64,000 nucleotides of DNA from Candidatus Aegiribacteria sp. (GTDB taxonomy: Bacteria > Fermentibacterota > Fermentibacteria > Fermentibacterales > JCC-6). The notes below the pieces were generated by a model. It was not told where the DNA came from, did no database searches, and was given only the letters and a program-made list of their open reading frames with translations. This document shows, piece by piece, positions 5,818 to 47,428 of the stretch; the first letter of the stretch is position 1, and every line of letters starts with the position of its first letter. The position numbers and the translations under genes are program-made. Location: the NCBI GenBank assembly GCA_030594645.1, contig JAUVEU010000001.1, positions 1 through 64,000 on the forward strand, read 5' to 3'.

Positions 5818-6519
5818 CTAGAAGAGGGTCTTGATGCTGCCCCAGGTTTCAGGTTCCAGAGCACTTACAGGCTCTCCGTAGAAATCAAAGAACATGTCCA
5901 GAGGGGTACCGAATATAATGTCAGATCTCACCCATACACCGGAACCGTCATTGTACCAGATATAGTCAGCGATGTAATGCAAGCTTGCAAGAATAAAACA
6001 GTTGTCGTTAACATCAGCCTGGGTTTCGAAGTAGTAATGTACACCCGCGTCAAGCTCAGGGTAAGCATCTGCGTTGATGATACAGTGGGTCTGATAGATA
6101 TCGTATCCCCATTGGCTGTCGCCTGTGAATGTGTTGGTGCAAGGTACGCTCTCTACCCATACATCGGTATTGGTGTTGGGGTCCGAATCACCGGTATAAT
6201 CTTCGGAGATGACGAAATTCATCATTGATCCCATCTCACCTGTCCAGATCATCCAAACATACATTTCTGTGACATAGTAGTTGTTATCAAGCTCGAAGTC
6301 ATCACAGATCCAGCGGTTACCACCACCGTAATTGGTGACAGCGGTAACTAAAACTGAATAATCGTATGTCTGCGAATAGACCAACCCATCAATCGCAATA
6401 GGACCGGTTCCTTGAACTTGATGTCTATCCGGCGTGATTGATGGATCAAGCGTAATTGATGGATCAGCAAGTACAAAAGATACTGACATGAAGAGCATAA
6501 AGGAAAAGAGTTTCTTCAT
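5818..6519 (-). CDS. Island secreted-protein family, copy 1
   Basis: This 233-residue exported protein has an N-terminal signal peptide (MKKLFSFMLFM, cleaved after a VLA-type site). The mature part holds the blocks shared by all copies: GTGPIAIDGLVYSQTY, RWICDDFELDNNYYVT, WMIWTGE, SDPNTNTDVW, GDSQWGYDIYQTHC, YYFETQADV, FFDFYGEP and the tail EPETWGSIKTLF. Conserved cysteines (CDDF, VPC, HCI and NCF) suggest disulfides outside the cytoplasm. I do not recognise a named family. The ATG at 6519 is chosen because the other copies start at the equivalent site. It has its own promoter at 6556-6584. Confidence 0.8.
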   Translation of the reverse strand: MKKLFSFMLFMSVSFVLADPSITLDPSITPDRHQVQGTGPIAIDGLVYSQTYDYSVLVTAVTNYGGGNRWICDDFELDNNYYVTEMYVWMIWTGEMGSMMNFVISEDYTGDSDPNTNTDVWVESVPCTNTFTGDSQWGYDIYQTHCIINADAYPELDAGVHYYFETQADVNDNCFILASLHYIADYIWYNDGSGVWVRSDIIFGTPLDMFFDFYGEPVSALEPETWGSIKTLF

Positions 6520-6819: not shown

Positions 6820-7506
6820 CTAGAAGAGGGTCTTGATGCTGCCCCAGGTTTCAGGTTCCAGAGCACTTACAGGCTCTCCGTAGAAATCAAAGAACAGATC
6901 TGGTGAATAGGGCATCATGCCAGAAAGACTCTGCCATACACCGGAACCATCATTGAGCCAGCAACTGTCACCGATGTAATGCACGCTTACAAGAATGAAG
7001 GAGTTGTCTGTAACATCAGCAGCCTGGGTTTCGAAGTAGTAGTGGATACCCGCATCAAGCTCAGGATAGACATTTGCGTTGATTATGCAGTAAGTCTCGT
7101 AGATATCGTAGCCCCAGTTGCTGTCGCCGGTGAAGGTATTGATGCAGGGTACGCTCCCAACCCATACATCGGTGTTGGTGTTTGGGTCGGAATCGAGAAG
7201 ATCATCTTCTGATATCACTAAATTCATCTGTGTTGCTTGTTCACCTGTCCAGATCATCCAGACACACATTTCTGTGACATAGTAGTTGTCATCAAAGACG
7301 AAGTCATCGCAGACCCAGCGGTCACTAGCACTACAGTTGCTGAAGCCGTTGTACAGTTCTGCAAAACTGTAAGTCTGAGAATAAACCAACCCATCAATCT
7401 CAACCGGACCGGTTCCCTGAATGTGACGGGAACCCAGTTCAAAGGGTGGCTCAGCCAAGGCGGAATACAGTGAGATAATCAGAATAACAGCGAGGATATG
7501 TTTCAC
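6820..7506 (-). CDS. Island secreted-protein family, copy 2
   Basis: This 228-residue exported protein starts at GTG (7506) behind a GAGGTG ribosome site and has a clear signal peptide (ILAVILIISLYSALAEP). It shares all family blocks (GLVYSQTY, CDDFVFDDNYYVT, WMIWTGEQ, GYDIYETYC) and ends EPETWGSIKTLF. It differs from copy 1 mainly after the SQTY block and just before the FFDFYGEP block, which look like the variable parts of the family. The gene and about 60 bases of 3' flank, as well as its upstream flank, are repeated around other copies, so the unit was duplicated together with its borders. Confidence 0.8.
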   Translation of the reverse strand: MKHILAVILIISLYSALAEPPFELGSRHIQGTGPVEIDGLVYSQTYSFAELYNGFSNCSASDRWVCDDFVFDDNYYVTEMCVWMIWTGEQATQMNLVISEDDLLDSDPNTNTDVWVGSVPCINTFTGDSNWGYDIYETYCIINANVYPELDAGIHYYFETQAADVTDNSFILVSVHYIGDSCWLNDGSGVWQSLSGMMPYSPDLFFDFYGEPVSALEPETWGSIKTLF

Positions 7507-8009: not shown

Positions 8010-9335
8010 ATGAAGTTACCCATGTCGCCTCCGAAATTAACTGAAATCATGCTTAAGTCTAAACCAAGCGACCTTGTACGTATAATGGATATTGTCTCTT
8101 CTTCATTAGTCAAGGACCGGTACTTGCATTGGGATGAATTACGCTATAGAGAGCCTCCGGAAGGATGTACACTCGAAGAATGGTGGATGGGTTTAAAACT
8201 ACGCAGGCTGGCTATGGTAAAATCCATTCCCTTGTGTGATGAACATGGTGATAACTTCCTATTCACGGAACCCGATCCCGTACAGGAAGCCCTCTTTAAT
8301 ATAACTTTGGGGGCTGGAGGCTCAATAGAAATACCAACAGAGATCACAGACCAGGAAAAAGATAGGTATTACTTCACTTCATTGATTGAGGAAGCAATAA
8401 CATCTAGTCAACTTGAAGGAGCATCAACAACACGAGATGCTGCTAAGGAAATGTTGAGAACGAATAGACCACCTCGAGATCACAGTGAACGGATGATTCT
8501 GAATAACTTCCAGACAATGAAAAGAATCGGTGAACTGCGAAACGAGGTTCTAGATACTGCGCTCGTACTTGAAATTCACAGGATCATAACTGACCAAACT
8601 CTTAGTGATTCAAAGGCATCTGGGCGGTTTAGAACCCAGGACGAAGACATTAAGGTATGGACAGAAAAGGGACTTCTACTACATACCCCACCTCCTGCCA
8701 GCGAACTCCCGGATAGAATGAAGATTATGTGTGATTTCGCTAACGGAAAGACTCCTGATACTTTCGTGCATCCAGCTCTCAGAGCAATAATCCTTCACTT
8801 CTGGTTAGCTTATGATCATCCATTTGCCGATGGAAACGGTCGAACGGCTCGTGCCCTATTCTACTGGTCAATGCTTCGCAATGATTTCTGGTTGTTTGAG
8901 TTCATTTCAATTTCATCAATTATCCGAAAAGCACCAGCGCAGTACGCCAGGTCATTCTTATATACAGAATCAGATGACAACGATATTACATATTTTGTAT
9001 TAGGCCAGATAAAAGTAATTACAAAAGCAATGGAAGAACTTGTACGATATGTGAAGAGGAAGACAAAACAGGTTAGAGCGATGGAAGCTGAATTGCGTGG
9101 AGTTGAAGTACTGAATTATCGTCAGAAGGCACTAATTAATCATGCCCTCAGACACCCACAACATAGATACTCAATTGAATCTCACAAACGAAGCCACAAT
9201 GTCGTATATCAAACAGCACGATCAGACCTGCTAAATCTGGTTGCAAGAAGTCTACTGATAAAGAGTAAGATTGGCAGACGTCTCTACTTCTCTCCAGCTC
9301 CCGATCTAAATGAGAAATTGGCTATACTTGATTAA
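8010..9335 (+). CDS. Fic family protein with C-terminal winged helix
   Basis: This 441-residue protein has the Fic catalytic motif HPFADGNGRTAR at about residues 270-281. The inhibitory-helix motif SSQLEG ((S/T)xxxE(G/N)) lies upstream at about 132-137, placing it with the self-inhibited, N-terminal-helix class. The last ~80 residues look like a helix-turn-helix/winged-helix domain. Fic enzymes attach AMP or other nucleotide-derived groups to target proteins. The target is unknown, and no partner toxin or antitoxin lies beside it. The ribosome site GAAGGAG precedes the ATG. The gene is a complete module between two tRNA-Glu-like boundary repeats, consistent with transfer as a unit. Confidence 0.88.
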   Translation: MKLPMSPPKLTEIMLKSKPSDLVRIMDIVSSSLVKDRYLHWDELRYREPPEGCTLEEWWMGLKLRRLAMVKSIPLCDEHGDNFLFTEPDPVQEALFNITLGAGGSIEIPTEITDQEKDRYYFTSLIEEAITSSQLEGASTTRDAAKEMLRTNRPPRDHSERMILNNFQTMKRIGELRNEVLDTALVLEIHRIITDQTLSDSKASGRFRTQDEDIKVWTEKGLLLHTPPPASELPDRMKIMCDFANGKTPDTFVHPALRAIILHFWLAYDHPFADGNGRTARALFYWSMLRNDFWLFEFISISSIIRKAPAQYARSFLYTESDDNDITYFVLGQIKVITKAMEELVRYVKRKTKQVRAMEAELRGVEVLNYRQKALINHALRHPQHRYSIESHKRSHNVVYQTARSDLLNLVARSLLIKSKIGRRLYFSPAPDLNEKLAILD

Positions 9336-10718: not shown

Positions 10719-13430
10719 ATGTTTCTGAATATTGTTTTTGCTTTGGCCATCGGTTCCGGAATACCGATGCAGGAATCTTACGTAGAAACATCAAACGGTG
10801 TCGCAGAATGCATCATTATTATAGAGCAGGGAGATCAGCCATCGCAGACCACAGAGGTTTCATTTCCCGTAACCGATGGTGATCATAGTCTTCTTTACAG
10901 AGCCGAAGCACTCTGGGTGGACACGACCAGTTATGCAGCCATAGCTAACGAAGTTGCCATCTCAGGAAACGGACAGGGGATTCTCACCAGCTGGTACCTC
11001 AATAACGATAGGTTTTCAAAGTATGCCATCCTTGGAACAGGTATACCATTGTGGAGTTTCGATATGCCTAATAACTGGGAGGGCATGGATGTAAGCGCCG
11101 GGTCAGGCACCATCTTCGCAGGGGTATCCAGTTCCTGGGGGCTTTTCGCCTGGCTAACTTCCTCTTCAGTACCCAGCCTTGAGCTGGAATTCTCATTGAA
11201 ACAGGATATTACTTCAGATGGTAACTATATAGTCTATGCAAAAAACGATAGAACATTGATCTGCTGGGATTGCGCTGCGGAAACAGAACTCTGGTCCACC
11301 CAGCTGCAGCCGACCGAGTACTACGAGATGAATGGTGTTGAGATTTCAGGAGATGGATCAAGGGTACTCGTATCGATTTACGACGCATCCAGCGGCACAC
11401 AGGTTTACGATATGTCAGATGGCTCCCAGGTGGGCGCGGCTCTTGGGAATTACGGTCAGGTAATGGGTGATATTTCCTACGATGGAAACAGGATCGTAAC
11501 CGGTAACTTTGATTGTATGATAAAGCTGTACGAATTCGACGGAGCAAACTGGAATCTGGAAGGAAACATATACGCCGGAGACACCTGGGCAACATCGGTT
11601 TCCATAAGCGGCGACGGAGAAACGGTCGCGGGGGGAACCGTTTACCTCAACAGCTCGAACTCAGGTAGACTTATTAAAATTGACTGGCCTTCCTCCGGAT
11701 CTCCGTCTGTAGCGTGGCAATACACGAATTATGGTTCCACGGTATCATCCATCGATATCTGTTACGATGGCTCCGTTCTGATAGCTGGAAGCTGGGGAAG
11801 GTATAACGCTACCTACGGCGATGTTGTAACGGTTCTGGACAATGCAGGTTCTGTGATATTTCAATTGCTGGACGATATCGATGAACCTGGTTCAATTTTC
11901 AGCGTCTCTATCAGCGATGACGGTTCCTTCGCGGCGGCTTCCGGAAAAGCTGTACATGCCGAGCAATGGGGTAACGGTGGCCAAGTGTACGGCATTCGTA
12001 TCATCGAAGCCGGGGATCATGATGTAGCCGTCATTGCAATTGCTGCTCCGCAGGAGAACCTTCAGGTGGGTGATGCTGTTTCACCTGAAGTGACTGTATC
12101 AAATCCGGGACTGAACCAGGAGTCGTTCTCGGTTCATGCAATGATCACCGAAGTGGGAACCGGAACGGTTGTATGGTTCGATGACGCGTCGGTAACTGGT
12201 CTTAATCCGGGCGAGAATGAATCCGTAATATTCGCGAACTGGACGGTACCGGATTATGGGAACTGGATCTTCACCTCGTATACGGGACTGCCCGGAGATA
12301 ACTATCCAGAAAATGATACTCTCTCCACCGGCACACGTGCCTTTCATGACGCGAGGGCAAAATCCATCATCTGCCCGTACCTTGAAAACACGGCTTTCCA
12401 GCAGATGGTACCCATGGTAGAAGTATCCAATACAGGGACGTACCCGGATGCCTTCGACGTTATCCTTGAGATCACTCCCTCGGGTGGTTCCACAGTTTAT
12501 CTGGATACAATTACAACCGCTTCTCTCAACCCCGGGGATGCTGCAGTTATGAGCTTTCCGGTCTGGACACCACAGGAAGTAAATACATTCACAGCGACAC
12601 TTACCGTTGAACTTACGGATGATTACAATCCGGATAATGACAATCTCTCAATATTCTTCGATGCATCCTACGAGATAATCTACGATGACGGTTCGTACGA
12701 AGCCTACTACTATGTCGGCAGTCAGGAAGATGACATGTTCGCCTTAAAATTCACACCGGTTCTGACACCACCCATGAATATTATCGGGGCCAGACTCTAT
12801 GTGAGCGGCTCCGATCCATTCGAATGGGTAGCTATCTGCTCCGATGACGGTACCGGGCTACCTGATGTACTCAATCCGATTCAGGTCGTGAATAACCCCG
12901 GTGTTTCTTCACCTCCAGCATGGCTGGAATTAACCTTTGATATCTGGTGGAACTGCACGGACGATCTCTGGCTTGTGACAAAATGGTACGATGGATATAC
13001 ATATCTTGGTGTTGGAACAGATATGAGCGCCCCGGTTACAGGTAGATGCTGGTGGCACAGCGGATCCAGTGGATGGAATCAATTCACCGAGGGTGATTAC
13101 TCCTTCAGGCTTAATGTCGAACCGACAACCGGAACAGAGGAAGAACCTGGAATCCCAACCGTTTACGATATGAACTCACCCAGACCGAACCCTTCTGCGG
13201 GAATAGTTTCGATATTGCTGAGCATTCCCGAAACCGAGGGAGAGGTCAGCCTTTCCGTATACGATCTCTCTGGCCGGTGCGTCGACTCTGTAGTCAGCGG
13301 TGTGTTTAAAGCCGGTGAGCACACAGTTATATGGGATCCATCACAGTCTTCGATTTCAACCGGGGTCTATTTCTTGAGAATGGACGCACCAGGCACTGTT
13401 GTAACGAAAAAACTGGTGGTTATCAGATAG
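10719..13430 (+). CDS. Large exported beta-propeller protein with CARDB-like repeats and FlgD/T9SS-type C-terminus
   Basis: This 903-residue protein begins with a short signal-like segment. Residues ~50-430 hold repeated WD/PQQ-style propeller blades (SxDGxxIVxG, ISGDGSRVLVS, ISGDGETVAGG). Residues ~440-640 hold two CARDB-like adhesion domains (HDVAVIAI, TVSNPGLNQESF, VEVSNTGTYPDAF). A less clear domain follows, and the last ~85 residues are a FlgD-like sorting domain (NPSAGIVSI, YDLSGRCVDSV, GVYFLRMDAPG, KKLVVIR). Such C-termini direct export through type IX-like systems in the FCB group. The start has a GAGGAGGAAG ribosome site. It lies alone between inverted repeats and ends at a strong terminator. 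Ligand and role are unknown. Confidence 0.85.
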   Translation: MFLNIVFALAIGSGIPMQESYVETSNGVAECIIIIEQGDQPSQTTEVSFPVTDGDHSLLYRAEALWVDTTSYAAIANEVAISGNGQGILTSWYLNNDRFSKYAILGTGIPLWSFDMPNNWEGMDVSAGSGTIFAGVSSSWGLFAWLTSSSVPSLELEFSLKQDITSDGNYIVYAKNDRTLICWDCAAETELWSTQLQPTEYYEMNGVEISGDGSRVLVSIYDASSGTQVYDMSDGSQVGAALGNYGQVMGDISYDGNRIVTGNFDCMIKLYEFDGANWNLEGNIYAGDTWATSVSISGDGETVAGGTVYLNSSNSGRLIKIDWPSSGSPSVAWQYTNYGSTVSSIDICYDGSVLIAGSWGRYNATYGDVVTVLDNAGSVIFQLLDDIDEPGSIFSVSISDDGSFAAASGKAVHAEQWGNGGQVYGIRIIEAGDHDVAVIAIAAPQENLQVGDAVSPEVTVSNPGLNQESFSVHAMITEVGTGTVVWFDDASVTGLNPGENESVIFANWTVPDYGNWIFTSYTGLPGDNYPENDTLSTGTRAFHDARAKSIICPYLENTAFQQMVPMVEVSNTGTYPDAFDVILEITPSGGSTVYLDTITTASLNPGDAAVMSFPVWTPQEVNTFTATLTVELTDDYNPDNDNLSIFFDASYEIIYDDGSYEAYYYVGSQEDDMFALKFTPVLTPPMNIIGARLYVSGSDPFEWVAICSDDGTGLPDVLNPIQVVNNPGVSSPPAWLELTFDIWWNCTDDLWLVTKWYDGYTYLGVGTDMSAPVTGRCWWHSGSSGWNQFTEGDYSFRLNVEPTTGTEEEPGIPTVYDMNSPRPNPSAGIVSILLSIPETEGEVSLSVYDLSGRCVDSVVSGVFKAGEHTVIWDPSQSSISTGVYFLRMDAPGTVVTKKLVVIR

Positions 13431-15313: not shown

Positions 15314-15982
15314 CTAGAAGAGTGTCTTGATGCTGCCCCAGGTTTCAGGTTCAAGAGCTAGATTCTCTCCGTAGAAATCAAAGAACATATCCACATACCA
15401 AAAGAAATAAGCCCATACACCAGAACCATCATCGTACCAGCAGTTGTCGGCAACATAGTGAAGGCTGAAAAGGATGAAACAGTTGTCGGCAACGTCAGCC
15501 TGGGTTTCGAAGTAGTAGTGCACTCCCGTATCAAGCTCAGGGTAAGCATCTGCGTTGATGATACAGTGGGTCTGATAGATATCGTATCCCCAATTGCTGT
15601 CGCCTGTGAATGTGTTGATGCAAGGAACGCTCTCTACCCATACATCAATATTAGTATTGGGATCGGAATCACCGGTATCATCTTCGGAGATAACAAGGTT
15701 CATTACTGAAGCCTGCTCACCCGTCCAGAGCATCCAAACGTCGATACTTGTAACATAGTAGGTATCATCAAGCTCGAAATCATCGCAGAACCAGCGGTCA
15801 CCTCCACCGTAGTTGCTCGTGCCGTTATACAAAAGCTCCCAACTATAAGTCTGCGAATAAACCAACCCATCAATCGCAATCGGGCCGGTTCCTTGAACGT
15901 GACGGGGACTCAGGACAAGAGGTTGGTCAGCAAGGATAGAAGCTGTGGATAATAAGAGTAATACAAAAAGGAGTTTCTTCAT
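15314..15982 (-). CDS. Island secreted-protein family, copy 3
   Basis: This 222-residue exported protein has a signal peptide (MKKLLFVLLLLSTASILADQ) and all family blocks, ending EPETWGSIKTLF. It is the shortest intact copy: the segment before the tail is reduced to AYFFWYVDMFFDFYGENLAL, lacking the RSD/FGG part of others. A GGAGGTG ribosome site stands before the ATG. The 60 bases after its stop and the promoter region match copies 1 and 5, so border sequences are conserved along with the gene. Confidence 0.8.
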   Translation of the reverse strand: MKKLLFVLLLLSTASILADQPLVLSPRHVQGTGPIAIDGLVYSQTYSWELLYNGTSNYGGGDRWFCDDFELDDTYYVTSIDVWMLWTGEQASVMNLVISEDDTGDSDPNTNIDVWVESVPCINTFTGDSNWGYDIYQTHCIINADAYPELDTGVHYYFETQADVADNCFILFSLHYVADNCWYDDGSGVWAYFFWYVDMFFDFYGENLALEPETWGSIKTLF

Positions 15983-16248: not shown

Positions 16249-16932
16249 CTAGAAGAGGGTCTTGATGCTGCCCCAGGTTTCGGATTCCATAGTATTCACA
16301 GGCTCTCCGTAGAAGTCAAAGAATACATCTCTGCCACCACCAAAAGCTACATCGGACCTTATCCATACTCCAGATCCATTGTCGTACCAACAGTAATCCC
16401 CAACCATTGCTGGACTAAGCAACATGAGGCAGCAGTCCGTAACGTCAGCCTGAACCTCAAAGTAGTAATGCTTTTCGGCGTAGAGTTCAGGGTAAAATCT
16501 GATATCAATCACACAATGTGTTTCATAGATTTCGTATCCCCAGTTACTATCACCTGTGAACGTATTGGTACATGGTGCGCTTTCAGCCCATACGTCGGTA
16601 TTAGTATTGGGATCCCAATCAAGCAGATCATCTTCAGATATTACAAAATTCATCTGTGTTGCTTGCTCATCTGTCCAAATCATCCAGACATGAACATCTG
16701 AGAGGTAGTAGTCATTATCAAGAATGAAATCATCGCAAAGCCAGCGATCCAGCACTCCTTCGATACATCCTGAACCAGAAATCAATCCAAAATCGTAAGT
16801 CTGCGAATAAACCAGCCCATCAATCTCAATCGGACCGATTCCTTGAGGTTGATGGCCATTCAACATGCAAGATTGATCAGCCAGGATAGAAGTTATGGAT
16901 AACAAAAGTAATGCAAAAAGGAATCTCTTCAT
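16249..16932 (-). CDS. Island secreted-protein family, copy 4
   Basis: This 227-residue exported protein (signal MKRFLFALLLLSITSILADQ) is one of the more diverged copies: WDPNTNTDVW, CVIDIRFYPELYAEKHYYFE, and a tail ESETWGSIKTLF. All cysteine positions of the family are kept (CDDF, APC, HCV, CCL and CW). The boundary repeat to its left is deleted. The sequence runs straight from AAAAGGGGTTTGAA into the conserved 3' flank, as if recombination between short TGAA repeats removed the tRNA-like end. Confidence 0.8.
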   Translation of the reverse strand: MKRFLFALLLLSITSILADQSCMLNGHQPQGIGPIEIDGLVYSQTYDFGLISGSGCIEGVLDRWLCDDFILDNDYYLSDVHVWMIWTDEQATQMNFVISEDDLLDWDPNTNTDVWAESAPCTNTFTGDSNWGYEIYETHCVIDIRFYPELYAEKHYYFEVQADVTDCCLMLLSPAMVGDYCWYDNGSGVWIRSDVAFGGGRDVFFDFYGEPVNTMESETWGSIKTLF

Positions 16933-17153: not shown

Positions 17154-17837
17154 CTAGAATAGGGTCTTGATGCTTCCCCAGGTTTCAGATTCCAGAAAAC
17201 TCACAGGCTCTCCATAGAAATCAAAGAACATACCAGGACGATCCAGACCGAAATATTCGATCCTCACAAACACACCGGAACCGTCATCCATCCAGCACCA
17301 GTCACCGAAACAATACTTTCTTACAAGAATGAAGCAGTTATCTCTAACGTCAGCCTGGGTTTCGAAATGGTAATGGACGCCCGTATCAAGCTCAGGGTAT
17401 GCATCTGCGCTAATAGTACAGTAGGTATCGTAGATGTCGTAACCCCAACGCGTATCGCCTGTCCAAATGTTTGTGCAGGGTACGCTCTCTACCCATACAT
17501 CGGTGTTGGTATTGGGGTTATAATCGCAGGCATCATCTTCGGAGATGACAAAATTCATCATGGATCCCTGTTCACCTGTCCAGATCATCCATACGCGTAT
17601 CCCTGTGACATAATAGTTATCATCAAGCTCGAAATCATCACAGAGCCAGCGGTTGCCACTACTGTAAATGCTGTAACCGTTAAGCAGAGTTTCAAAACTG
17701 TAAGTCTGTGAATAAACCAACCCATCAATCTCAACCGGACCGGTTCCCTGTGTGTGACAGGGACTCAGAGAAAGCGGCTGATCAGCCAGAACAGAAGCTA
17801 TGGATAACAAGAGCAATGCAAAAAGGAGTTTCTTCAT
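17154..17837 (-). CDS. Island secreted-protein family, copy 5
   Basis: This 227-residue exported protein (signal MKKLLFALLLLSIASVLADQ) has family blocks GTGPVEIDGLVYSQTY, RWLCDDFELDDNYYVTG, WMIWTGEQ and YDIYDTYC, and the tail ESETWGSIKTLF. The first ~45 residues and 3' flank are closest to copies 2 and 3, while the middle is closer to copy 1, suggesting exchange between copies. GGAGGTGTGCA precedes the ATG. Confidence 0.8.
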   Translation of the reverse strand: MKKLLFALLLLSIASVLADQPLSLSPCHTQGTGPVEIDGLVYSQTYSFETLLNGYSIYSSGNRWLCDDFELDDNYYVTGIRVWMIWTGEQGSMMNFVISEDDACDYNPNTNTDVWVESVPCTNIWTGDTRWGYDIYDTYCTISADAYPELDTGVHYHFETQADVRDNCFILVRKYCFGDWCWMDDGSGVFVRIEYFGLDRPGMFFDFYGEPVSFLESETWGSIKTLF

Positions 17838-19750: not shown

Positions 19751-19842
19751 CCAATCGATTCCAGCATAATACAACGTAAGGGAGATACCACCGCTGGTTA
19801 GGATTGGCAGGTGCCCGTTAATTCATAACTGTTATGGATTTT

Positions 19843-19985
19843 CAGAAGAGGGTCTTTATGCTTCCCCAGGTTTCAGGTTCCAGAGCATTTACAATTTCTC
19901 CCGTCGGCATAGTCCAGACATAAATGTCTGTGATGTAGTAGTCACTATCAAGCTCGAAATCGTCACAGAACCAGCGGCGTTAATG
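19843..19985 (-). pseudogene. Secreted-family remnant, C-terminal fragment with internal deletion
   Basis: The minus strand reads RWFCDDFELDSDYYITDIYV, then W, and jumps directly to PTGEIVNALEPETWGSIK plus TLF and stop. About 115 codons of the family's middle are missing, as is everything before RWFCDDF. It is a decayed copy. Its N-terminal counterpart may be the short match at 21291-21340 beyond the cNMP gene. Confidence 0.75.
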
Positions 19986-21454: not shown

Positions 21455-23254
21455 ATGTATAAAATAATTCTGCTTTTGCTGTTATACGGTTCTTTCGTTA
21501 TTTCAAATGCTGATTCTGCAATTCAGACTGATTGGTCCGGGGGTCAAGGACTCCTGGGTCCGGTTAGTGAGTGGAATAATCGATTTTATTCTGCTATCGA
21601 TGTACATTGGAGCATTCCCGGGAGTATTATGCTCCCTTTTCCCGCTGAGCAAACCGTTGATGATGACTTCGACGGTAATAGCGTATACTCAGAGGATATT
21701 GACAGCGATGGAGACATGGACATCCTCGGTGCCGGTGATTACACCATCACCTGGTGGGAGAATGCAGACGGTTCGGGTTCATCCTGGATCGAGCATATCG
21801 TTGATGGGGACTTCAATAGTGCGAGATCCGTATACTCAGAGGATATAGACGGCGACGGCTATATGGATATACTCGGTGCTGGTGGATACGACATCATCTG
21901 GTGGGAGAATACAGACGGTTCGGGTTCATCCTGGATCAAGCATACCGTTGACGGGGATTTTGATGGCGCCAGGTCAGTATATTCCGCGGATATCAATAGT
22001 GACGGCTATATGGATATCCTCGGCGCTGCTTTTTACGCTGACGACATCACGTGGTGGGAGAATATCGATGGTTCTGGTACATCCTGGATCGAGCATACGA
22101 TTTCTTGGGACTTCGATGGTGCCACTTCCATATACCCCGAAGACATGGACGGCGACGGTGACATTGACGTGCTCGGTGCTGCTGAAAAAGCTGATGATAT
22201 CACCTGGTGGGAGAATATCAACGGCTCGGGTACATCCTGGATCGAGCATACTGTTGATGTAGACTTCGGTGGAGCTGCGTCCGTTTACTCGGAGGACATA
22301 GATGGTGACGGAGATATGGACGTGCTTGGTGCTTCTTTTATTGACTGGGATATAACCTGGTGGGAGAATATCAACGGCTCGGGTACATCCTGGGTGGAGC
22401 ATATCATCTTTGGAGGGTTTAAAGGCACGCATTCTGTATACTCAGAAGACCTGGATGATGACGGTGACATGGACGTACTCGGTGCTGCATGGACAGACAA
22501 CGACATCATCTGGTGGGAGAATACAGACGGCTCGGGTTCATCCTGGATCAAGCACACCATTGATGGAAATTTCAGTTGGGCCTGGTCCGTATACTCGGAA
22601 GATATAGACGGTGACGGAGAGATGGACATCCTCGGTGCTGCATGGAATGACGGCATCATCTGGTGGAAGCTTGATGCATATCCACCTGGAGGTTCACTTA
22701 TATCCAGTATTCTTGATACGCAGGGGGATCCCTACTGGGATTATCTCGATTGGAATTCACACACCCCTCTGGGAACCTCTGTTTCATTCCGGGTCAGATC
22801 ATCGGGCGACAGCAATAACATGGGAGCATGGTCAGACACACTGACCTCACCGTGTCTACTGGAAAGTATCCTGATCGATGGTAACAGATACGTACAGTAC
22901 ATGGCTATACTCGAAACATTCAACACTGATACTACTCCCACGCTTAACGATGTCACGATCAGCTGGGATCCAACGGAAATCGTGGACAGTGAGTATCCCG
23001 CTATCCTGGCGCTTCTGCCCTTCTCACCAAATCCTGCTTCAGCTCCTGTCGTAAGGTTCAGCCTGCCCGAGCCTGCTTCTGTCGAAATCTCCATCTTTGA
23101 CATGTCAGGCCGACTCATCAGTGAGATTAATGGAGATGAATACTCTCAGGGGGTTCACGATGTTCTGCTGGGAAACTTCAATTCCGGGATTCACTTCTGC
23201 AGGATGATCTCTGGAGACTTCACGGCAATACAACGCTTCGTGGTGATAGAGTAG
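21455..23254 (+). CDS. Exported FG-GAP/VCBS-type repeat protein with FlgD/T9SS-type C-terminus
   Basis: This 599-residue protein has a signal peptide (MYKIILLLLLYGSFVISNA) and seven tandem repeats of about 48-50 residues (roughly residues 75-405). Each carries a calcium-type loop (DIDGDGDMDVLGA), WWEN and GSGxSWIEHT. A jelly-roll-like region follows (~410-505). The last ~85 residues are a FlgD-like sorting domain (FSPNPASAPVV, IFDMSGRLISE, GIHFCRM, QRFVVIE). The repeats probably form a calcium-stabilised beta-propeller at the cell surface. An AGGAGGT ribosome site precedes the ATG. Confidence 0.87.
   Translation: MYKIILLLLLYGSFVISNADSAIQTDWSGGQGLLGPVSEWNNRFYSAIDVHWSIPGSIMLPFPAEQTVDDDFDGNSVYSEDIDSDGDMDILGAGDYTITWWENADGSGSSWIEHIVDGDFNSARSVYSEDIDGDGYMDILGAGGYDIIWWENTDGSGSSWIKHTVDGDFDGARSVYSADINSDGYMDILGAAFYADDITWWENIDGSGTSWIEHTISWDFDGATSIYPEDMDGDGDIDVLGAAEKADDITWWENINGSGTSWIEHTVDVDFGGAASVYSEDIDGDGDMDVLGASFIDWDITWWENINGSGTSWVEHIIFGGFKGTHSVYSEDLDDDGDMDVLGAAWTDNDIIWWENTDGSGSSWIKHTIDGNFSWAWSVYSEDIDGDGEMDILGAAWNDGIIWWKLDAYPPGGSLISSILDTQGDPYWDYLDWNSHTPLGTSVSFRVRSSGDSNNMGAWSDTLTSPCLLESILIDGNRYVQYMAILETFNTDTTPTLNDVTISWDPTEIVDSEYPAILALLPFSPNPASAPVVRFSLPEPASVEISIFDMSGRLISEINGDEYSQGVHDVLLGNFNSGIHFCRMISGDFTAIQRFVVIE
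21680..22670 (+). repeat. Seven ~145-bp tandem coding repeats
   Basis: The DNA encoding the FG-GAP-like units repeats with high similarity, for example TCGGGTTCATCCTGGATC. The repeats could change number by slippage or recombination. Confidence 0.8.
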
Positions 23255-23268
23255 CAGCTGACAGAGAT

Positions 23269-23955
23269 CTAGAAGAGGGTCTTGATGCTGCCCCAGGTTC
23301 CAGATTCCAGGGCATTGACAGGCTCCCCCCAGAAATCGAAGAACATATCCATATCTGTACCAAATACGATATCCGACCTGGTGTATGAGCCTGACCCGTT
23401 ATAGTCAAACCAGCAGTAGTCACCAACAAAGTTGCCGCTGAAAAGCATGGCGTAATTGACTCCAATATCAGCCTGTACCTCAAAGTAGTAGTGAACGCCG
23501 GCCGTAAGCTCAGGATAAGCATCCGCGCTGATGATGCAGTGGATCTCATAGATGTCGAAGCCCCATTGATTGTCACCGGTGAATGTGTTGGTACAGGGAA
23601 CGGTCTCGGACCATACATCGATGTTGGTATTGGGATCCCAATCACCGATATTATCCTCGGAAATGACAAGGTTCATCATCGAGGCCTGTTCAGTTGTCCA
23701 CATCATATAGACATAGATTTCATCAATATAGTAATCGTTATCGAGCACGAAATCATCACAGGCCCATCCTCCGTGTTCACCATAAATCATAACACCGTAA
23801 CCTGCAAAACTTAAATCGTAAGGTTGCGAATACACCAGATAATCAACTGAGATCGGACCGGTTCCTTGAAGATGACGGGGACTCAGAACAGCAGGCTGGT
23901 CAGCCAGGATAGAAACTGTGGATAGGAATAGCAAAGTGAAAAGCAGTTTCTTCAT
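23269..23955 (-). CDS. Island secreted-protein family, copy 6
   Basis: This 228-residue exported protein (signal MKKLLFTLLFLSTVSILADQ) keeps the family blocks with several changes: PISVDYLVYSQPY, GGWACDDFVLDNDYYID, VYMMWTTEQ, GFDIYEIHC and FFDFWGEP, with the tail ESGTWGSIKTLF. It is convergent with the FG-GAP protein, leaving 14 bases between stops, so it lacks the conserved 3' flank of copies 1-5. This suggests the downstream border was replaced. Confidence 0.8.
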   Translation of the reverse strand: MKKLLFTLLFLSTVSILADQPAVLSPRHLQGTGPISVDYLVYSQPYDLSFAGYGVMIYGEHGGWACDDFVLDNDYYIDEIYVYMMWTTEQASMMNLVISEDNIGDWDPNTNIDVWSETVPCTNTFTGDNQWGFDIYEIHCIISADAYPELTAGVHYYFEVQADIGVNYAMLFSGNFVGDYCWFDYNGSGSYTRSDIVFGTDMDMFFDFWGEPVNALESGTWGSIKTLF

Positions 23956-24210: not shown

Positions 24211-24645
24211 CTAGAAGATGGTCTTGATACTGCCCCAGGTTTCAGGTTCTAACACATTCATTACAGCTATGAAAACAAAAAACATATCAGAATCCTCGTT
24301 AAAAGCTTCATCGGATCTTACCCATATACCAGAGCCATCATCGATCCAGCAGTAATCACCATAGTAATTAGGACTGACCAGAATAAAGCAATTGTCCGGG
24401 GTTACTGCCTGGGTTTCAAAGTAATAGTGTGTGCTGCAATTAAGATTAACACCGGGACTGATTTCGCAATAAGTCTCATAGATGTCGTATCCCCAGTTGC
24501 TGTAGCCTGTCGGGGTGTTGATACAGGGAATGCTCTCAGCCCAAACATCGATGGTGATGTTTGGATCGGAATCGCCAGCCTGATTGTAGTCATCAGTCCC
24601 TGAGCCTCCACCGGAATAATCAGTAACGCTTCGCAGGCTTACCCC
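24211..24645 (-). pseudogene. Secreted-family copy lacking its N-terminus
   Basis: An open frame of about 145 codons ends EPETWGSIKTIF and covers SDPNITIDVW, GYSNWGYDIYETYC, YYFETQAV, FILVSPNYYGDYCW and DDGSGIWVRSDE. It has no signal peptide, no first ~75 residues, no start codon and no promoter, being closed upstream by TAA. The FYGEP segment is also replaced. It is a truncated, inactive copy. Confidence 0.75.
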
Positions 24646-27327: not shown

Positions 27328-28008
27328 CTAGAAGAGGGTTTTAATACTGCCCCAGGTTTCAGGTTCCAGAGCATTCACCGGCTCTCCGTAGAAATCGAAG
27401 AACATGTCCATGGAAGTTCCACCAAAATAGATATCTGATCTTATCCAAATACCGGAACCGTCATCGTACCAGCACCTGTCACCAAAGTAATTTTCCGAAA
27501 AGGTTATCCAACAAGTATCAATGACATCTGTATTAACTTCGAAGTAGTAGTGAACATCGTTGTAAAGCACAGGGAATATATCCTGGTCTATGAAACAGTG
27601 CGCCTCATAAATGTCATAACCCCAGTTACTGTCACCTGTAAATGTATTGCTACACGGTACATTCTCAGACCATACATCTATGTTTGTGTTTGGGTCGGAA
27701 TCATTTGTGTAATCCTCAGAGATGACAAGGTTCATGTTCGAGGCATGCTCACCTATATACAGCACCCATACATAGATATCAGTTACATAGTAATCTGCTC
27801 CAACAGTGAGGTCATCACAGAACCAGCGGTCTGAGTTGAAAGAGACTACGTTATTAAGGCGCGGATAATTGTATGTCTGAGAGTATACCAACCCATATAT
27901 TTCAGCAGAAGCGATTCCCTGAGCGTAACGGGGAGTTAGAATAAGCGGCTCATCAGCCAATATAGAAGCTATGGATAAGAAGAGAAATGCAGGAAGCAGT
28001 TTTTTCAT
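27328..28008 (-). CDS. Secreted-protein family, copy 7 (outside the island)
   Basis: This 226-residue exported protein (signal MKKLLPAFLFLSIASILADE) has blocks GLVYSQTY, RWFCDDLTVGADYYVT, SDPNTNIDVW, GYDIYEAHC and FFDFYGEP and the tail EPETWGSIKTLF. It lies beyond pilT and has no tRNA-like border repeat beside it, so the family is not limited to the island. The mid-protein changes (IDQDIFPVLYNDVHYYFEV) are the largest among intact copies. It has its own promoter. Confidence 0.8.
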   Translation of the reverse strand: MKKLLPAFLFLSIASILADEPLILTPRYAQGIASAEIYGLVYSQTYNYPRLNNVVSFNSDRWFCDDLTVGADYYVTDIYVWVLYIGEHASNMNLVISEDYTNDSDPNTNIDVWSENVPCSNTFTGDSNWGYDIYEAHCFIDQDIFPVLYNDVHYYFEVNTDVIDTCWITFSENYFGDRCWYDDGSGIWIRSDIYFGGTSMDMFFDFYGEPVNALEPETWGSIKTLF

Positions 28009-32719: not shown

Positions 32720-33313
32720 ATGTATATAAAGAAATTGTTGATTGTGGTTTTTCTTTCAACGACAATTTCTCCTGTGTTTTCCGATGCCGTTATTTTTCAA
32801 ACTGATTTCAACGAGCTGCCTGATAACTGGTTTGCTACTGATAATTGGGAATTCGGTCCAGATGGAGCTGTAACCGGTTTCTCCTACTGGCAGGGATACT
32901 GGTTTGCAGATATGCTAACCAGTAATGGAGATACTGAATTCACCTACTTCGTTCCGGACGGAACGGACTCTATTCTTGTTACAATACCATATTACCTCGG
33001 AGTAGAAGTGTTTGATGGAAGCGCTTATTTCAGTATCCTGATGCAAGCATCTGGTTCCGGATGGACTGAGATATGGAGTGAGTCAGTGATTTGGTATGAA
33101 TGGTTATTCGAAACTGCAACAATCAATGTGTCTCCTGACTGGATTTCCGGAGGGGAATGGATCAGTATCCGTTTCAAGGGTTGGGGTGGAAGCGAAGAGT
33201 ACTCCAATGTTCACTGGGAAATACAGGGTCTTACAATTACTGCAATAGGTGACAGCCTGGCTCTCGACAACAGCACATGGGCAGAGATAAAGTCTATTTC
33301 GGGATGGGAATGA
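32720..33313 (+). CDS. Secreted protein with TWxxIK C-terminal tail (jelly-roll-like)
   Basis: This 197-residue exported protein has a signal peptide (LLIVVFLSTTISPVFSDA) and a beta-rich, aromatic body (FQTDFNELPDNWFATDNWEF, later ISIRFKGWGG) like a concanavalin/jelly-roll fold. It ends NSTWAEIKSISGWE. That ending corresponds to the TWGSIKTLF tail of the island family although the bodies are not related. AGGAGGT lies upstream of the ATG. Function unknown. Confidence 0.75.
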   Translation: MYIKKLLIVVFLSTTISPVFSDAVIFQTDFNELPDNWFATDNWEFGPDGAVTGFSYWQGYWFADMLTSNGDTEFTYFVPDGTDSILVTIPYYLGVEVFDGSAYFSILMQASGSGWTEIWSESVIWYEWLFETATINVSPDWISGGEWISIRFKGWGGSEEYSNVHWEIQGLTITAIGDSLALDNSTWAEIKSISGWE

Positions 33314-33417
33314 TACAGAAGAGTATATATTTGACTACAATCATATAATCTTTTATCTTTATGTGGGTTACTTGGTAGGAATTTGTGTGAAATTTCATTT
33401 ACTTTTTGGAGGTTACT

Positions 33418-34089
33418 ATGAAGAATTTACTTCATCTGTTTGTTGCTGTTGCCACAATGATGTTGTTTGTTCCTGCTGTCAGTGCAGACTGGGACGATGA
33501 TTTCGATTCCTATGTGCTTGGCAGCGGATTACACGGTCAGGGTAACTGGGAAGGCTGGAACAACGACCCAGCTTTTGATGCTTTTGTGTCTGATGTTCAA
33601 TTTTCCTCCTCTCCCCATTCGGTTGCCATCAATCCAACCTCAGATATCGTCCAGCCGTTCTCGGAAACCTCTGGCGAGTGGGTCATGACATCCTGGCACT
33701 ACATCCCCACCGGATCAACGGGCGATCAGTACTGGATTCTCTGCAACTCTTACCCTACTGCATACAGCGAAGACTGGTCTCTACAGCTTAAGTTCGAATC
33801 AGCTAGTGGTAACATGATCATAATGGAAGGTTCAATGGCTGTTCCGATAGTATACGACCAGTGGATCGAAGTTAAGGCTGAAATCAATCTTGGCACTGAC
33901 ACTCAGAGCATCTACTACAACGGAGTATTTCTTGAATCGATTAACTGGAGCAGCGGTGGTGCAATAGCAATAGGCTGCCTCGATTTATTCTCGGATGGCG
34001 GGAGTACAATCTATTGGGATGACTGCTCGCTTGAGGTTGCTGGCGCGCTTGAGCAGACCACCTGGGGTCAGATCAAGACTTCCTTATAA
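33418..34089 (+). CDS. Secreted LamG/concanavalin-like protein with TWGQIK tail
   Basis: This 223-residue exported protein has a signal peptide (HLFVAVATMMLFVPAVSADW) and a lectin/LamG-like beta-sandwich: DDDFDSYVLGSGLHGQGNWE, SGEWVMTSWHYIP, and YDQWIEVKAEINLGTDTQSI followed by YYNG. It ends LEQTTWGQIKTSL. The ATG at 33418 follows a GGAGG site. A strong terminator follows. It probably binds a surface or extracellular polymer, which is inference from fold type. Confidence 0.78.
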   Translation: MKNLLHLFVAVATMMLFVPAVSADWDDDFDSYVLGSGLHGQGNWEGWNNDPAFDAFVSDVQFSSSPHSVAINPTSDIVQPFSETSGEWVMTSWHYIPTGSTGDQYWILCNSYPTAYSEDWSLQLKFESASGNMIIMEGSMAVPIVYDQWIEVKAEINLGTDTQSIYYNGVFLESINWSSGGAIAIGCLDLFSDGGSTIYWDDCSLEVAGALEQTTWGQIKTSL

Positions 34090-34337: not shown

Positions 34338-36278
34338 ATGAAAAAGGGGTCATTATTACTTGCTCTTCTTCTGATCACTGCTGGTAGTGCTGTAGCACTA
34401 CCTTCCTATCTGGGTCTGAGGGGACTCAACCGCACAGTTGATGCTGAACCTATAGGAGCAGGAGAATACTCATTTGGGTTATTCTCTTTCCTCGGATTGA
34501 GCAGCGATACACGCACTGCCTATCTTTCCGGTGATTCCGTAGATGTTACCGATACAGAATACGACGGTACCTTTTACCTCACCTCTGCTATAGGACTTGG
34601 CGCAAATGTTGAACTCGCTGGAAGAATTTCCTACATCTGGAACTGTTTAAAAAGGGATGATGTCGCAGGAAGAACCGATCTAAGCGGAGGAGACTGCGAG
34701 AACGATGACGGCTTCAGCGAAGCTCGCCTTGCTGCGAAATTCTCGACAAATCCCATGGAAGGTTGCTGGATAGGCATAATGCCATGGGTTGGTTTCAGTA
34801 TTTATGACGGCGGGAACAGCCGTTATGTAATCAACAACAATGAATACGACGGAATATGGTACGCGGGCCAGCCTATGTTCGAACTCCGCAGACCGATGAT
34901 CGGAGTTGAAGGTGTTTCGGGTGGTGCTGATCTGCTGTTTTCAAAAGACCTGAACCCGGTTACACTCCATGTAAACCTTGGTTACCATTACTTCAAACAG
35001 CATTTTGAGTATACTGATTACAGATATACTTCATCCGGCTGGACCGACAGCACTCACGTAGACATGTATATTGAAGATCCTGTCATGCACTTCGCAGCCG
35101 GTGTTGAATATCCTCTGGAAAAAGTCACGCTTTTCACTGAGCTTGAATGGCGTCACTTTATGAAAAGGGACTGGGAAGAAGGCGACGGCGAAAACTTCGA
35201 TGACTGCATTACTCTCTCTCCCGGTATCAGGATACCCACAAACAGCGGACTTGCGTTCGATATAACAGGTTCCTTCACTCTGACTGATTTCGACGCTGAA
35301 TACAACGATCTCGGGCATAACGCTTATCAGAATGGCGGAAACCCGACAGACAGCGAGAGAGCTCGCTATGCGCCATTCCCTGAGGGTTATTCTCCTGAAT
35401 GGGGTATTGGACTTAATGTCATGTACTCGAGCGATCTCCGTGCCGGTCCGAGTACTGCCGTTATGGCAGGCACCGTTACCGATGCTGTTACAGGAGAATT
35501 CCTCGCAGCTACGGTTGCATTCCCCGGAACCGCTGTTGAACCTGCTGCCTCTGATGCTGAAACGGGTTTCTACTCCGCAGAGCTTCCGGAGGGTAATGTT
35601 TCTGTGGCAGTCAACGCAGAAGGTTATATCGGAACCACTGAAGCCGTACAGGTTGCCGGTGGACAGGACTTCTCAACGGACTACGCTCTTCAGCCTGAAC
35701 CCGGCACGATTGCCGGAAGTGTTATTGATATTGAGACAGGCCTTGCCGTCTCAGCAACAGTTTCAGTACCTGATGTTCCAGCAAGTGCCAGATCCGGCAG
35801 TGATGGACTTTACAGCTTACAGGTTCCGGATGGTGTCTGGACTGTTACCGCTACTGCCGATGGTTACCTTGGAGAAAGCGCTCCAACTGAAGTCGCAAGC
35901 GGTGAAGATGTAACAGTTGATTTCCAGCTCCAGTCCGTTGCTTTCGAGCCGGTCTACTTCGATGTTAACGTTTATAACATCAAGTCTGAGTTCACAGGTC
36001 TTCTTGATGAGATCGCAGATAAGATCATTGCAAATGATCTTGTTGTGCAGATCTGTGGTCATGCTGATTCTGACTATACAGAGGAATTCAACATGACTCT
36101 CAGTGAAGACAGAGCCTTGGTCATTTACGATTACCTGGTTGATCGTGGAGTCAGCGCCGGAAGTCTTTCGACAATCGGTTACGGTGAAAACAAACCAGCA
36201 GTTCCCAATACTACTAATGCCAACAAGTCTCTCAACCGTCGTGTTGAGTTTGTTGTTCGATCTGTGAGAACTAACTAG
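34338..36278 (+). CDS. OmpA-family outer membrane protein with carboxypeptidase-regulatory-like repeats
   Basis: This 646-residue exported protein (signal SLLLALLLITAGSAVALP) has a beta-barrel-like region at about residues 25-375. Two CarboxypepD_reg-like domains follow (MAGTVTDAVTGEFLAATVAF and AGSVIDIETGLAVSATVSV). The C-terminal OmpA domain at ~520-645 contains VQICGHADSDYTEEFNMTLS, then RALVIYDYLVDRGV and NKSLNRRVEFVV, the peptidoglycan-binding pattern. It links the outer membrane to the cell wall. A TTGACA box lies at 34273 upstream, and GAAAGGAAGG precedes the ATG. Confidence 0.9.
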   Translation: MKKGSLLLALLLITAGSAVALPSYLGLRGLNRTVDAEPIGAGEYSFGLFSFLGLSSDTRTAYLSGDSVDVTDTEYDGTFYLTSAIGLGANVELAGRISYIWNCLKRDDVAGRTDLSGGDCENDDGFSEARLAAKFSTNPMEGCWIGIMPWVGFSIYDGGNSRYVINNNEYDGIWYAGQPMFELRRPMIGVEGVSGGADLLFSKDLNPVTLHVNLGYHYFKQHFEYTDYRYTSSGWTDSTHVDMYIEDPVMHFAAGVEYPLEKVTLFTELEWRHFMKRDWEEGDGENFDDCITLSPGIRIPTNSGLAFDITGSFTLTDFDAEYNDLGHNAYQNGGNPTDSERARYAPFPEGYSPEWGIGLNVMYSSDLRAGPSTAVMAGTVTDAVTGEFLAATVAFPGTAVEPAASDAETGFYSAELPEGNVSVAVNAEGYIGTTEAVQVAGGQDFSTDYALQPEPGTIAGSVIDIETGLAVSATVSVPDVPASARSGSDGLYSLQVPDGVWTVTATADGYLGESAPTEVASGEDVTVDFQLQSVAFEPVYFDVNVYNIKSEFTGLLDEIADKIIANDLVVQICGHADSDYTEEFNMTLSEDRALVIYDYLVDRGVSAGSLSTIGYGENKPAVPNTTNANKSLNRRVEFVVRSVRTN

Positions 36279-45760: not shown

Positions 45761-47428
45761 TCATCTCAGCAAACACAGGCCGGTTGTTTCCGTAATACTT
45801 CCGGATTGAATCCTGCAGAAGTAAAGGCCGGCTGAAACGGGCTCCCCGTTCCGACGTCTTCCGTCCCACTGCACAGAATGTTCTCCGGCGGTAAGCTCTG
45901 AATCGTTAAGCGAGTAAATAATCCTCCCGGAAAGATCATACACTTCAATTAACGTGTATCCCGGTTCTGAAAGCTCAAATGAAATGGATGCAGTTGAATG
46001 GAAAGGATTCGGGCTAGCGCACAGACCAAGCCGGTGAGTAGGCTCCAAGCTGATCCCTGTTCCGGTAACAGTGAAGCTTATGGTGTCTGCGGCAACAGGG
46101 ATTCCTTCGTCGAAGGATGTAACTATCAGCTCGTTCGATCCCACCTCCGCGAACAGATCGTCTCGATAAGTGTACTTCAAACCGGTTCCGAAGGCGTAGA
46201 GGTTCCAATCAGTGGCTGCTATGTAAACAACACCGTCTGTGATGGCAGGGCTGGATTGGATAAATTTACTGCCTGTTGCATAGGACCAGATCTCTTCCCC
46301 GGTATCACAGTCCAGTGCTATGACTCTAGCATCATCCGGATTGTATTCTTCGCCATAGAAAACCATACCATCGGCAATGCCGGAAGAACCATGCTGTTGA
46401 CCCGGGACTGACCATATGATGCTGCCTGTGGAAGCATCAAGACAGCAATAATTTCCGAAACCAAAGTAGAGTCTGTTATCGTTATAAGCAGGAGTTGCTG
46501 TGAAGTATGTCCCACCAGGATAGGTTTCAGCCTCCCAGACAGTGATCCCTGTTATTGCGTCAATTGCCCGTATCTTGCCGTCAATTCCACCTATGTATAT
46601 CAAACTGTCCACAACAACAGGAGATGAGTCCCAGTAACCTTCATAGCTATCCATGTTTTCCCAGATGATCGAGCCTGTATTGGCATTAAGAGCATACAAA
46701 GGACTCTCGTTATCCCAACAAGTTGGGACAAATACCATGTTGTTCCATACCGCCATACAGCTCACCTGAGTTCCGGAGAGTGTATTCGCCCATATCTCTG
46801 TGCCTGTTGCCGCATCAAAGCAATAGACACTTTGGCTTTCCCCACAATACACTCTTCCATTAGCCACCGCAGGTGTGCCCGCACTTCCGTTGACATCACC
46901 AGAAGCCCAAATCCTCTCACCTGTATTGGCATCCAGACACCATACTGAATCGCTTGCTGTGTACAGGAAGCCGTCCTTAACTGTAACCGCGTCATCTGTA
47001 GCACCAACCCGGTATTTCCAGATCAGCTCGCCTGTAGCAGCATCAAGGGCATACAGGGTGTCATTGCCATGGTCTGAGGGATAGTACACAATTCCATCTA
47101 CTATCACAGGCGTGGGAAACTCATGGGAATCTCCTGTGACCGAAGCTGTCCAGAGTATTGTGTTGTCCGTAGGAGCAGGCGACTCTGAAAAGCCATGATG
47201 CAGATCATTCTGCATGTATGTATACCAGTCTGTGTTCAAACGGGGGATCTGTACAACTGGCTGTCCGTTAATTGAGTACTGGACGTATTCAGGTATCTCG
47301 TTCTCGTTCTCCACAATGGTTCTGACTGTAAGCCAGTCGCCGTCATAGGTTTCTCCGTCAACAGGTTCTGTGATTGTAAGATTTGTGACAGATATAAGGA
47401 TTGCTGTAAGAAGTGTTCCGAAAATCAT
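45761..47428 (-). CDS. Exported PQQ-like beta-propeller protein with FlgD/T9SS-type C-terminus
   Basis: This 555-residue protein has an N-terminal hydrophobic start (MIFGTLLTAILISVTNL). PQQ-like propeller repeats span ~85-450, each with the ALDAATGELIWKY pattern and VVDSLIYIGG or AYNDNRLYFG strands. A linker follows, and the last ~85 residues are a FlgD-like sorting domain (ASPNPFHSTASI, VYDLSGRIIYS, GLYFCRIQSG). Such proteins are surface-exported in the FCB group. No PQQ-binding signature is visible, so an enzyme role is not supported. A GGAGG site precedes the ATG. Confidence 0.87.
   Translation of the reverse strand: MIFGTLLTAILISVTNLTITEPVDGETYDGDWLTVRTIVENENEIPEYVQYSINGQPVVQIPRLNTDWYTYMQNDLHHGFSESPAPTDNTILWTASVTGDSHEFPTPVIVDGIVYYPSDHGNDTLYALDAATGELIWKYRVGATDDAVTVKDGFLYTASDSVWCLDANTGERIWASGDVNGSAGTPAVANGRVYCGESQSVYCFDAATGTEIWANTLSGTQVSCMAVWNNMVFVPTCWDNESPLYALNANTGSIIWENMDSYEGYWDSSPVVVDSLIYIGGIDGKIRAIDAITGITVWEAETYPGGTYFTATPAYNDNRLYFGFGNYCCLDASTGSIIWSVPGQQHGSSGIADGMVFYGEEYNPDDARVIALDCDTGEEIWSYATGSKFIQSSPAITDGVVYIAATDWNLYAFGTGLKYTYRDDLFAEVGSNELIVTSFDEGIPVAADTISFTVTGTGISLEPTHRLGLCASPNPFHSTASISFELSEPGYTLIEVYDLSGRIIYSLNDSELTAGEHSVQWDGRRRNGEPVSAGLYFCRIQSGSITETTGLCLLR

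Follow-up and report, generated by a model that had tools for sequence, protein, structure and literature searches.

Small exported proteins of Candidatus Aegiribacteria sp. share a C-terminal tail of about 14 residues with the consensus [AS]-[LV]-[ED]-x-x-T-W-[GA]-x-I-K-x-x-F-COOH. The tail occurs throughout the genome and the phylum, follows many unrelated bodies, and is positioned outside the fold in two predicted structures. These properties lend good support, as far as the class of the element is concerned, to the proposal of the first-pass annotation that the tail is a sorting or anchoring signal. We consider it very probable that the tail, written as [AS][LV][ED]xxTW[GA]xIKxxF(R)-COOH to include a variant ending, is an autonomous sorting or docking tag. 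More specifically, it is probably an autonomous C-terminal sorting signal that works like the CTD of the T9SS. A link of the tail to the T9SS itself is possible, and is the least certain step of this interpretation.

Tail proteins in the window, the genome and other phyla

The window, which is the whole 64-kb stretch of DNA analysed, contains two tail proteins encoded on the forward strand. As the first-pass annotation had reported, the product of 33418-34089 ends ALEQTTWGQIKTSL and that of 32720-33313 ends LALDNSTWAEIKSISGWE. The latter is an atypical member, in which six residues follow IK instead of the usual three. Nine reading frames of an island family, on the reverse strand, end LE..TWGSIKT[LI]F*; seven of them are intact, one is partial, and one is a remnant of 45 codons. 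The features are as follows, with the evidence in brackets.

32720..33313, + strand: signal-peptide protein of 197 aa, tail LDNSTWAEIKSISGWE
33260..33310, + strand: C-terminal tail of the preceding protein, atypical (tail HMM, E 1.5e-4)
33418..34089, + strand: lectin-like signal-peptide protein of 223 aa, tail ALEQTTWGQIKTSL, body cluster a singleton
34045..34086, + strand: C-terminal tail ALEQTTWGQIKTSL (tail HMM, E 1.9e-6)
5818..6519, - strand: island-family paralogue, tail ALEPETWGSIKTLF (pattern and tail HMM)
6820..7506, - strand: island-family paralogue with GTG start, tail ALEPETWGSIKTLF (pattern and tail HMM)
15314..15982, - strand: island-family paralogue, tail ALEPETWGSIKTLF (pattern and tail HMM)
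16249..16932, - strand: island-family paralogue, tail TMESETWGSIKTLF (pattern and tail HMM)
17154..17837, - strand: island-family paralogue, tail FLESETWGSIKTLF (pattern and tail HMM)
19842..19979, - strand: island-family remnant (L006), 45 codons open, tail still at its end (tail HMM)
23269..23955, - strand: island-family paralogue, tail ALESGTWGSIKTLF (pattern and tail HMM)
24211..24645, - strand: island-family partial copy (L008), open frame of 144 codons without signal peptide, tail VLEPETWGSIKTIF
27328..28008, - strand: island-family paralogue modelled with AlphaFold2, β-sandwich body (residues 40-210) and tail helix (216-225)
27331..27372, - strand: C-terminal tail ALEPETWGSIKTLF of the modelled paralogue, outside the fold (model; tail HMM)

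The nine paralogues, spread over positions 5818-28008 of the reverse strand, suggest local duplication and decay of a family of small exported β-sandwich proteins. Comparison of the tail proteins of the window with Pfam and NCBIfam gave no match, including for the body of the 32720..33313 protein. Directly downstream of the two forward-strand tail genes, and on the same strand, is the gene of an OmpA-like protein with carboxypeptidase-regulatory-like repeats (34338-36278). A Fic-like protein is encoded at 8010-9335 and matches protein adenylyltransferase Fic with an E-value of 2e-10, which is under the curated cut-off.

The source genome comprises 3.07 Mb in 158 contigs and is approximately 94% complete; tails were counted in it by pattern searches, HMM searches and the reading of individual stretches. 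The pattern ACNTGGGSNNNNATHAAR (T-W-[GA]-x-I-K) was matched 35 times in the genome and never in the reversed control. Thirty-four of the matches are located three to six residues ahead of a stop codon, and the remaining one falls within a C25-type peptidase. The internal TWGSIK (L021, G000:C103:15073-15090) lies upstream of the peptidase domain of this 1250-aa protein, has an E-value of 1.3, and is probably a coincidence. An HMM of 16 positions, built from 55 diverse tails, identified 38 C-terminal tails in the genome with E-values from 6e-7 to 0.043, and the next match had an E-value of 1.3. The 38 proteins conform to the consensus [AS][LV][ED]xxTW[GA]xIKxxF-COOH, and a few of them carry one to three extra residues.

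A stricter DNA pattern, which requires the Phe and a stop codon, matched 403 times and in each of the 42 genomes of the phylum (1-27 matches per genome, median 9), on contigs of Candidatus Fermentibacteria, Aegiribacteria and Sabulitectum. The same stop-anchored pattern had no matches in reversed controls, and about 0.08 matches are expected over all 42 genomes at uniform base composition. The tail is therefore not confined to the proteins on which it was noticed; such a confinement had been named by the first-pass annotation as speaking against a signal. The codons for T, G, I, K and F of the tail vary synonymously (ATC 107, ATA 38 and ATT 22; AAG 121 and AAA 46), which indicates selection on the peptide.

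Outside the phylum, the matches listed include tails in MAGs labelled Latescibacterota, Krumholzibacteriota, Eisenbacteria, Coatesbacteria and Gemmatimonadota, although some of these MAGs share protein families with Latescibacterota MAGs, and the labels may differ from GTDB. These tails are in frame, exactly C-terminal, and belong to exported-looking proteins; one genome (G161) encodes 22 of them. A variant ending in [FY]R before the stop codon is frequent in Eisenbacteria and Krumholzibacteriota and was found in frame at the C-terminus in all 26 of its matches. Matches of the DNA pattern in Halomonas relatives, Pseudomonadales and one Acidobacteria MAG were rejected as chance, since they fall within the reading frame of a permease, which continues for another 141 residues. 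One Treponema match, in a frame of 72 codons, was rejected likewise. A contig labelled Syntrophaceae (L139, JAUXBI010000036.1) encodes two tail proteins whose families are typical of Fermentibacteria, and its MAG is probably mislabelled or mixed.

Bodies of the tail proteins and predicted structure of the tail

The bodies to which the tail is attached are not alike, in agreement with the first-pass annotation. With their signal peptides and tails removed, the 161 proteins compared formed about 33 body clusters (phmmer, E<1e-3), a number that is, if anything, low, because single-linkage clustering merged some distinct families. Pfam and NCBIfam matches on the bodies include LTD, CBM96/DNRLRE, Disaggr_repeat, DUF4350 and a bacterial Ig-like domain, and propeller bodies are also among the tail bearers. 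One island-type member matches NCBIfam choice-of-anchor R. Choice-of-anchor is the NCBI name for bodies that various sorting tails follow. The name thus designates the body and not the TWGxIK tail, and the likeness consists in a body type that carries different C-terminal anchors. A Foldseek search with the island body returned only β-sandwich resemblances, to phage fibre and baseplate proteins and to the lectin-like domain of Cwp84, with query TM of at most 0.50, which are uninformative for function. According to simple hydropathy and regex rules, used in place of SignalP, 136 of the 161 bearers have a signal peptide, the failures being mostly 5'-truncated or non-ATG frames, and 4 of 160 have a lipobox cysteine after the signal peptide, so that the bearers as a group do not qualify as lipoproteins. 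The median length of the tail bearers is about 236 aa, compared to about 546 aa for T9SS CTD proteins.

AlphaFold2 predictions with family alignments resulted in a β-sandwich for the 27328-28008 paralogue and a β-propeller for a second tail protein (L019), both with pLDDT above 90. In both models, the tail forms a separate helix of 10 residues, with a low pLDDT of about 50-70, which follows a loose linker and is positioned outside the fold. The possibility raised by the first-pass annotation that the tail might be part of one shared fold is thus contradicted by two different predicted folds. The island family is divergent, and the columns that do not vary among its members are those of the tail residues T, W, I and K. 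Some positions of the tail consensus were fixed by the search patterns, whereas A/S at -14 and L/V at -13 were never required. The tail, which ends xIKxxF-COOH, has only W, I and F as hydrophobic residues, and a transmembrane segment is absent. If the helix forms as predicted, Trp, Ile and Phe (i, i+3, i+7) would be located on one of its faces, and the Thr preceding the Trp is a plausible N-cap. The existence of [FY]R endings argues that the face of the putative helix, rather than a free C-terminal Phe, would be the element that is read.

Comparison with known sorting signals and the T9SS

C-terminal sorting signals are a known kind of element. The tail resembles the type A CTD of the T9SS (TIGR04183/Por_Secre_tail; SprA, PorV, PorU) in its C-terminal position on signal-peptide proteins whose bodies are of many unrelated kinds, in having many copies per genome, in occurring in the same genomes, and in the case of one homologous body that carries one or the other signal. 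The type A CTD is an Ig-like β-sandwich of 70-100 residues, and the "short" CTDs of Prevotella intermedia consist of 40-55 residues of β-sheet with motifs B, D and E (PMC11969387; PMC12618676). In contrast, the tail has about 14 residues, is a predicted helix outside the fold instead of a β-sandwich or β-sheet, and does not match TIGR04183. The type B CTD (TIGR04131; PorP/SprF shuttles) is 150-235 residues long, and its gene is often beside that of its shuttle (PMC12618676), whereas the tail has neither a TIGR04131 match nor a recurrent neighbour. The T9SS signals published so far comprise 40-235 residues with β-sheet structure and are read by PorV or PorP/SprF shuttles (PMC11969387, PMC12618676, PMC10994853); the tail is therefore not a member of these signal families.

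The profile searches agree with this distinction. None of the 100 listed tail proteins matched TIGR04183 at E<=0.1, TIGR04131, or the PEP-CTERM-type and NCBIfam CTERM models, and none of the 100 combined the tail with a T9SS CTD. Positive controls from the same window did match: three larger exported proteins (10719-13430, 21455-23254 and 45761-47428) scored over the TIGR04183 cut-off. The contrast drawn by the first-pass annotation, that the tail proteins lack the FlgD/T9SS-type domain of larger exported proteins, was thus borne out.

The short C-terminal homology region on unrelated exported proteins, and the mode of its discovery, are reminiscent of PEP-CTERM/exosortase and GlyGly-CTERM/rhombosortase; however, those signals end in a transmembrane helix and a basic cluster, and the tail has neither (PMC1569441, PMC3237569). 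The hydrophobic transmembrane segment, subsequent basic residues and signature motif that define PEP-CTERM, GlyGly-CTERM and LPXTG are not found in the tail, nor are the β-barrel body, alternating hydrophobic strand and aromatic end of an outer-membrane β-signal. Pfam and NCBIfam contain no model covering the tail, and a full-text literature search for the motif, and for Fermentibacteria with secretion, found no paper. The tail is distinct from the known signals in being much shorter, non-membrane, helical by prediction, and associated with no known machinery.

The T9SS is well represented in the genomes that encode the tail. Type A CTDs (TIGR04183) are present in all 42 genomes of the phylum, with at least 105 in the source genome and at least 30 in each, and SprA scores over the cut-off in 40 of the 42. 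C25 (gingipain/PorU-family) peptidases are expanded across Fermentibacteria to 10-33 per genome, and some of them occur in adjacent pairs of 1.26 kaa (G000:C24). Outside the phylum, SprA was detected over the cut-off in 16 of 16 tail-bearing genomes but in 81 of 343 sampled background genomes, a co-occurrence that is confounded by shared ancestry, as the tail phyla are all within or near the FCB group. The presence of SprA in a genome is a necessary but not sufficient condition for a T9SS substrate, and most of the sampled SprA genomes are without the tail. A genome of the same genus (G014, 98% complete) has few tails and no SprA over the cut-off, and contains 33 CTDs. Its SprA may have been missed, be unassembled or very divergent, or else may not be required; we considered a joint loss of SprA and tails, but since the CTDs are kept, SprA may equally well have been missed or left unassembled.

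The two signals are connected by a parallel β-helix body that ends in the tail in L325, from a Krumholzibacteriota MAG (...VERTTWGGIKSIFR), and in the type A CTD in its Fermentibacteria homologues L260 and L344 (29% identity over 342 aa, E 5e-25). It is the sole convincing body exchange found, and β-helix bodies are promiscuous. The numbers of tails and CTDs correlate among the 42 genomes with a rho of 0.62, or 0.40 with genome size removed; these values carry little weight, being uncorrected for phylogeny and based on first-look candidate CTDs. Clustering of the gene neighbours of tail genes gave no recurrent neighbour or operon partner, and a co-occurring processing protein, for which the first-pass annotation had suggested a search, was not found. 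Since the tail genes share no neighbour, the receptor of the tail is probably encoded elsewhere and acts in trans. The tail may function apart from the T9SS machinery, or may be a second type of signal for the T9SS route.

Proposed mechanism and alternatives

Based on the tail sequences and the predicted structures, a mechanism of tail function can be proposed. Tail proteins would first be exported by Sec via their predicted N-terminal signal peptides. The folded body would then present the C-terminal helix on a short linker, with W, I and F exposed on one face and Thr capping its start. A conserved periplasmic or outer-membrane receptor might read the helix and route the protein across the outer membrane or hold it at the surface. 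The tail would thereby serve small proteins without a T9SS CTD, in genomes whose larger proteins carry T9SS CTDs. A single SprA translocon can serve several signal classes, each through a different shuttle (PMC12618676). The likeliest mechanism here would be of this kind, with the tail helix read by a dedicated shuttle or adaptor close to the SprA translocon. It is conceivable, though we hold it tentatively, that the tail is a signal common to several FCB-group phyla and has a dedicated receptor or translocon for small exported proteins that operates alongside the classical T9SS. Such a receptor or translocon could belong to the T9SS, as a new class of shuttle that takes helical signals, or could form a separate system for sorting at the outer membrane.

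The tail could instead be a docking tag independent of the T9SS, whose helix binds a surface or periplasmic scaffold, such as an outer-membrane protein, an S-layer-like protein or a cohesin-like receptor. The scaffold would retain the proteins in the periplasm, or else anchor them at the surface after export along a different route. A short amphipathic helix on a linker is like docking motifs, CTD motifs and transmembrane segments are absent, lipoboxes are few, and many SprA genomes lack the tail. We nevertheless regard docking independent of the T9SS as unlikely, because no candidate scaffold was found, SprA accompanies the tail in all 16 tail genomes outside the phylum, and a role in export is suggested by the single body found with either the tail or a T9SS CTD. 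Envelope PDZ domains read C-terminal YxF. A tag for quality control or turnover, read at the free C-terminus by a periplasmic PDZ protease (DegS/DegP- or Prc-like) that limits the amount of protein, would thus fit the fixed distance to the carboxylate and the C-terminal Phe of most tails. It is improbable, since the [FY]R ends of Krumholzibacteriota and Eisenbacteria and the extra residues of some tails in the source genome indicate that a Phe at the free C-terminus is dispensable, conservation extends 13 residues inward, and a degron fixed on so many unrelated stable bodies would be unexpected.

Two further explanations have almost no probability left. At least 13 of the 38 tails in the source genome are on one expanded body family, as would be expected if the tail were the common end of one diverged protein family or a product of chance. 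This explanation is already refuted by the number of clusters formed without the tail, the β-sandwich and β-propeller folds, the distinct Pfam domains, and the empty reversed controls. The C-terminal Phe is also shared with outer-membrane β-signals read by BamA; this reading is largely excluded, given that the bodies are soluble β-sandwiches or propellers rather than barrels, position -3 is T/A/S/N instead of a hydrophobic or aromatic residue, and the tail is predicted to be helical.

Whole sorting systems, including PEP-CTERM/exosortase, GlyGly-CTERM/rhombosortase and the T9SS, were first recognized from C-terminal signals. As a sorting signal, the TWGxIK tail would be among the shortest at a C-terminus, without a membrane segment or a fold of its own, and it occurs in phyla that have almost no cultured members. 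In each genome it marks dozens of proteins annotated as hypothetical, for which it predicts export to one shared destination. The tail provides a concrete tag for a receptor search, and bears on whether the T9SS reads signals beyond the known domain-sized ones.
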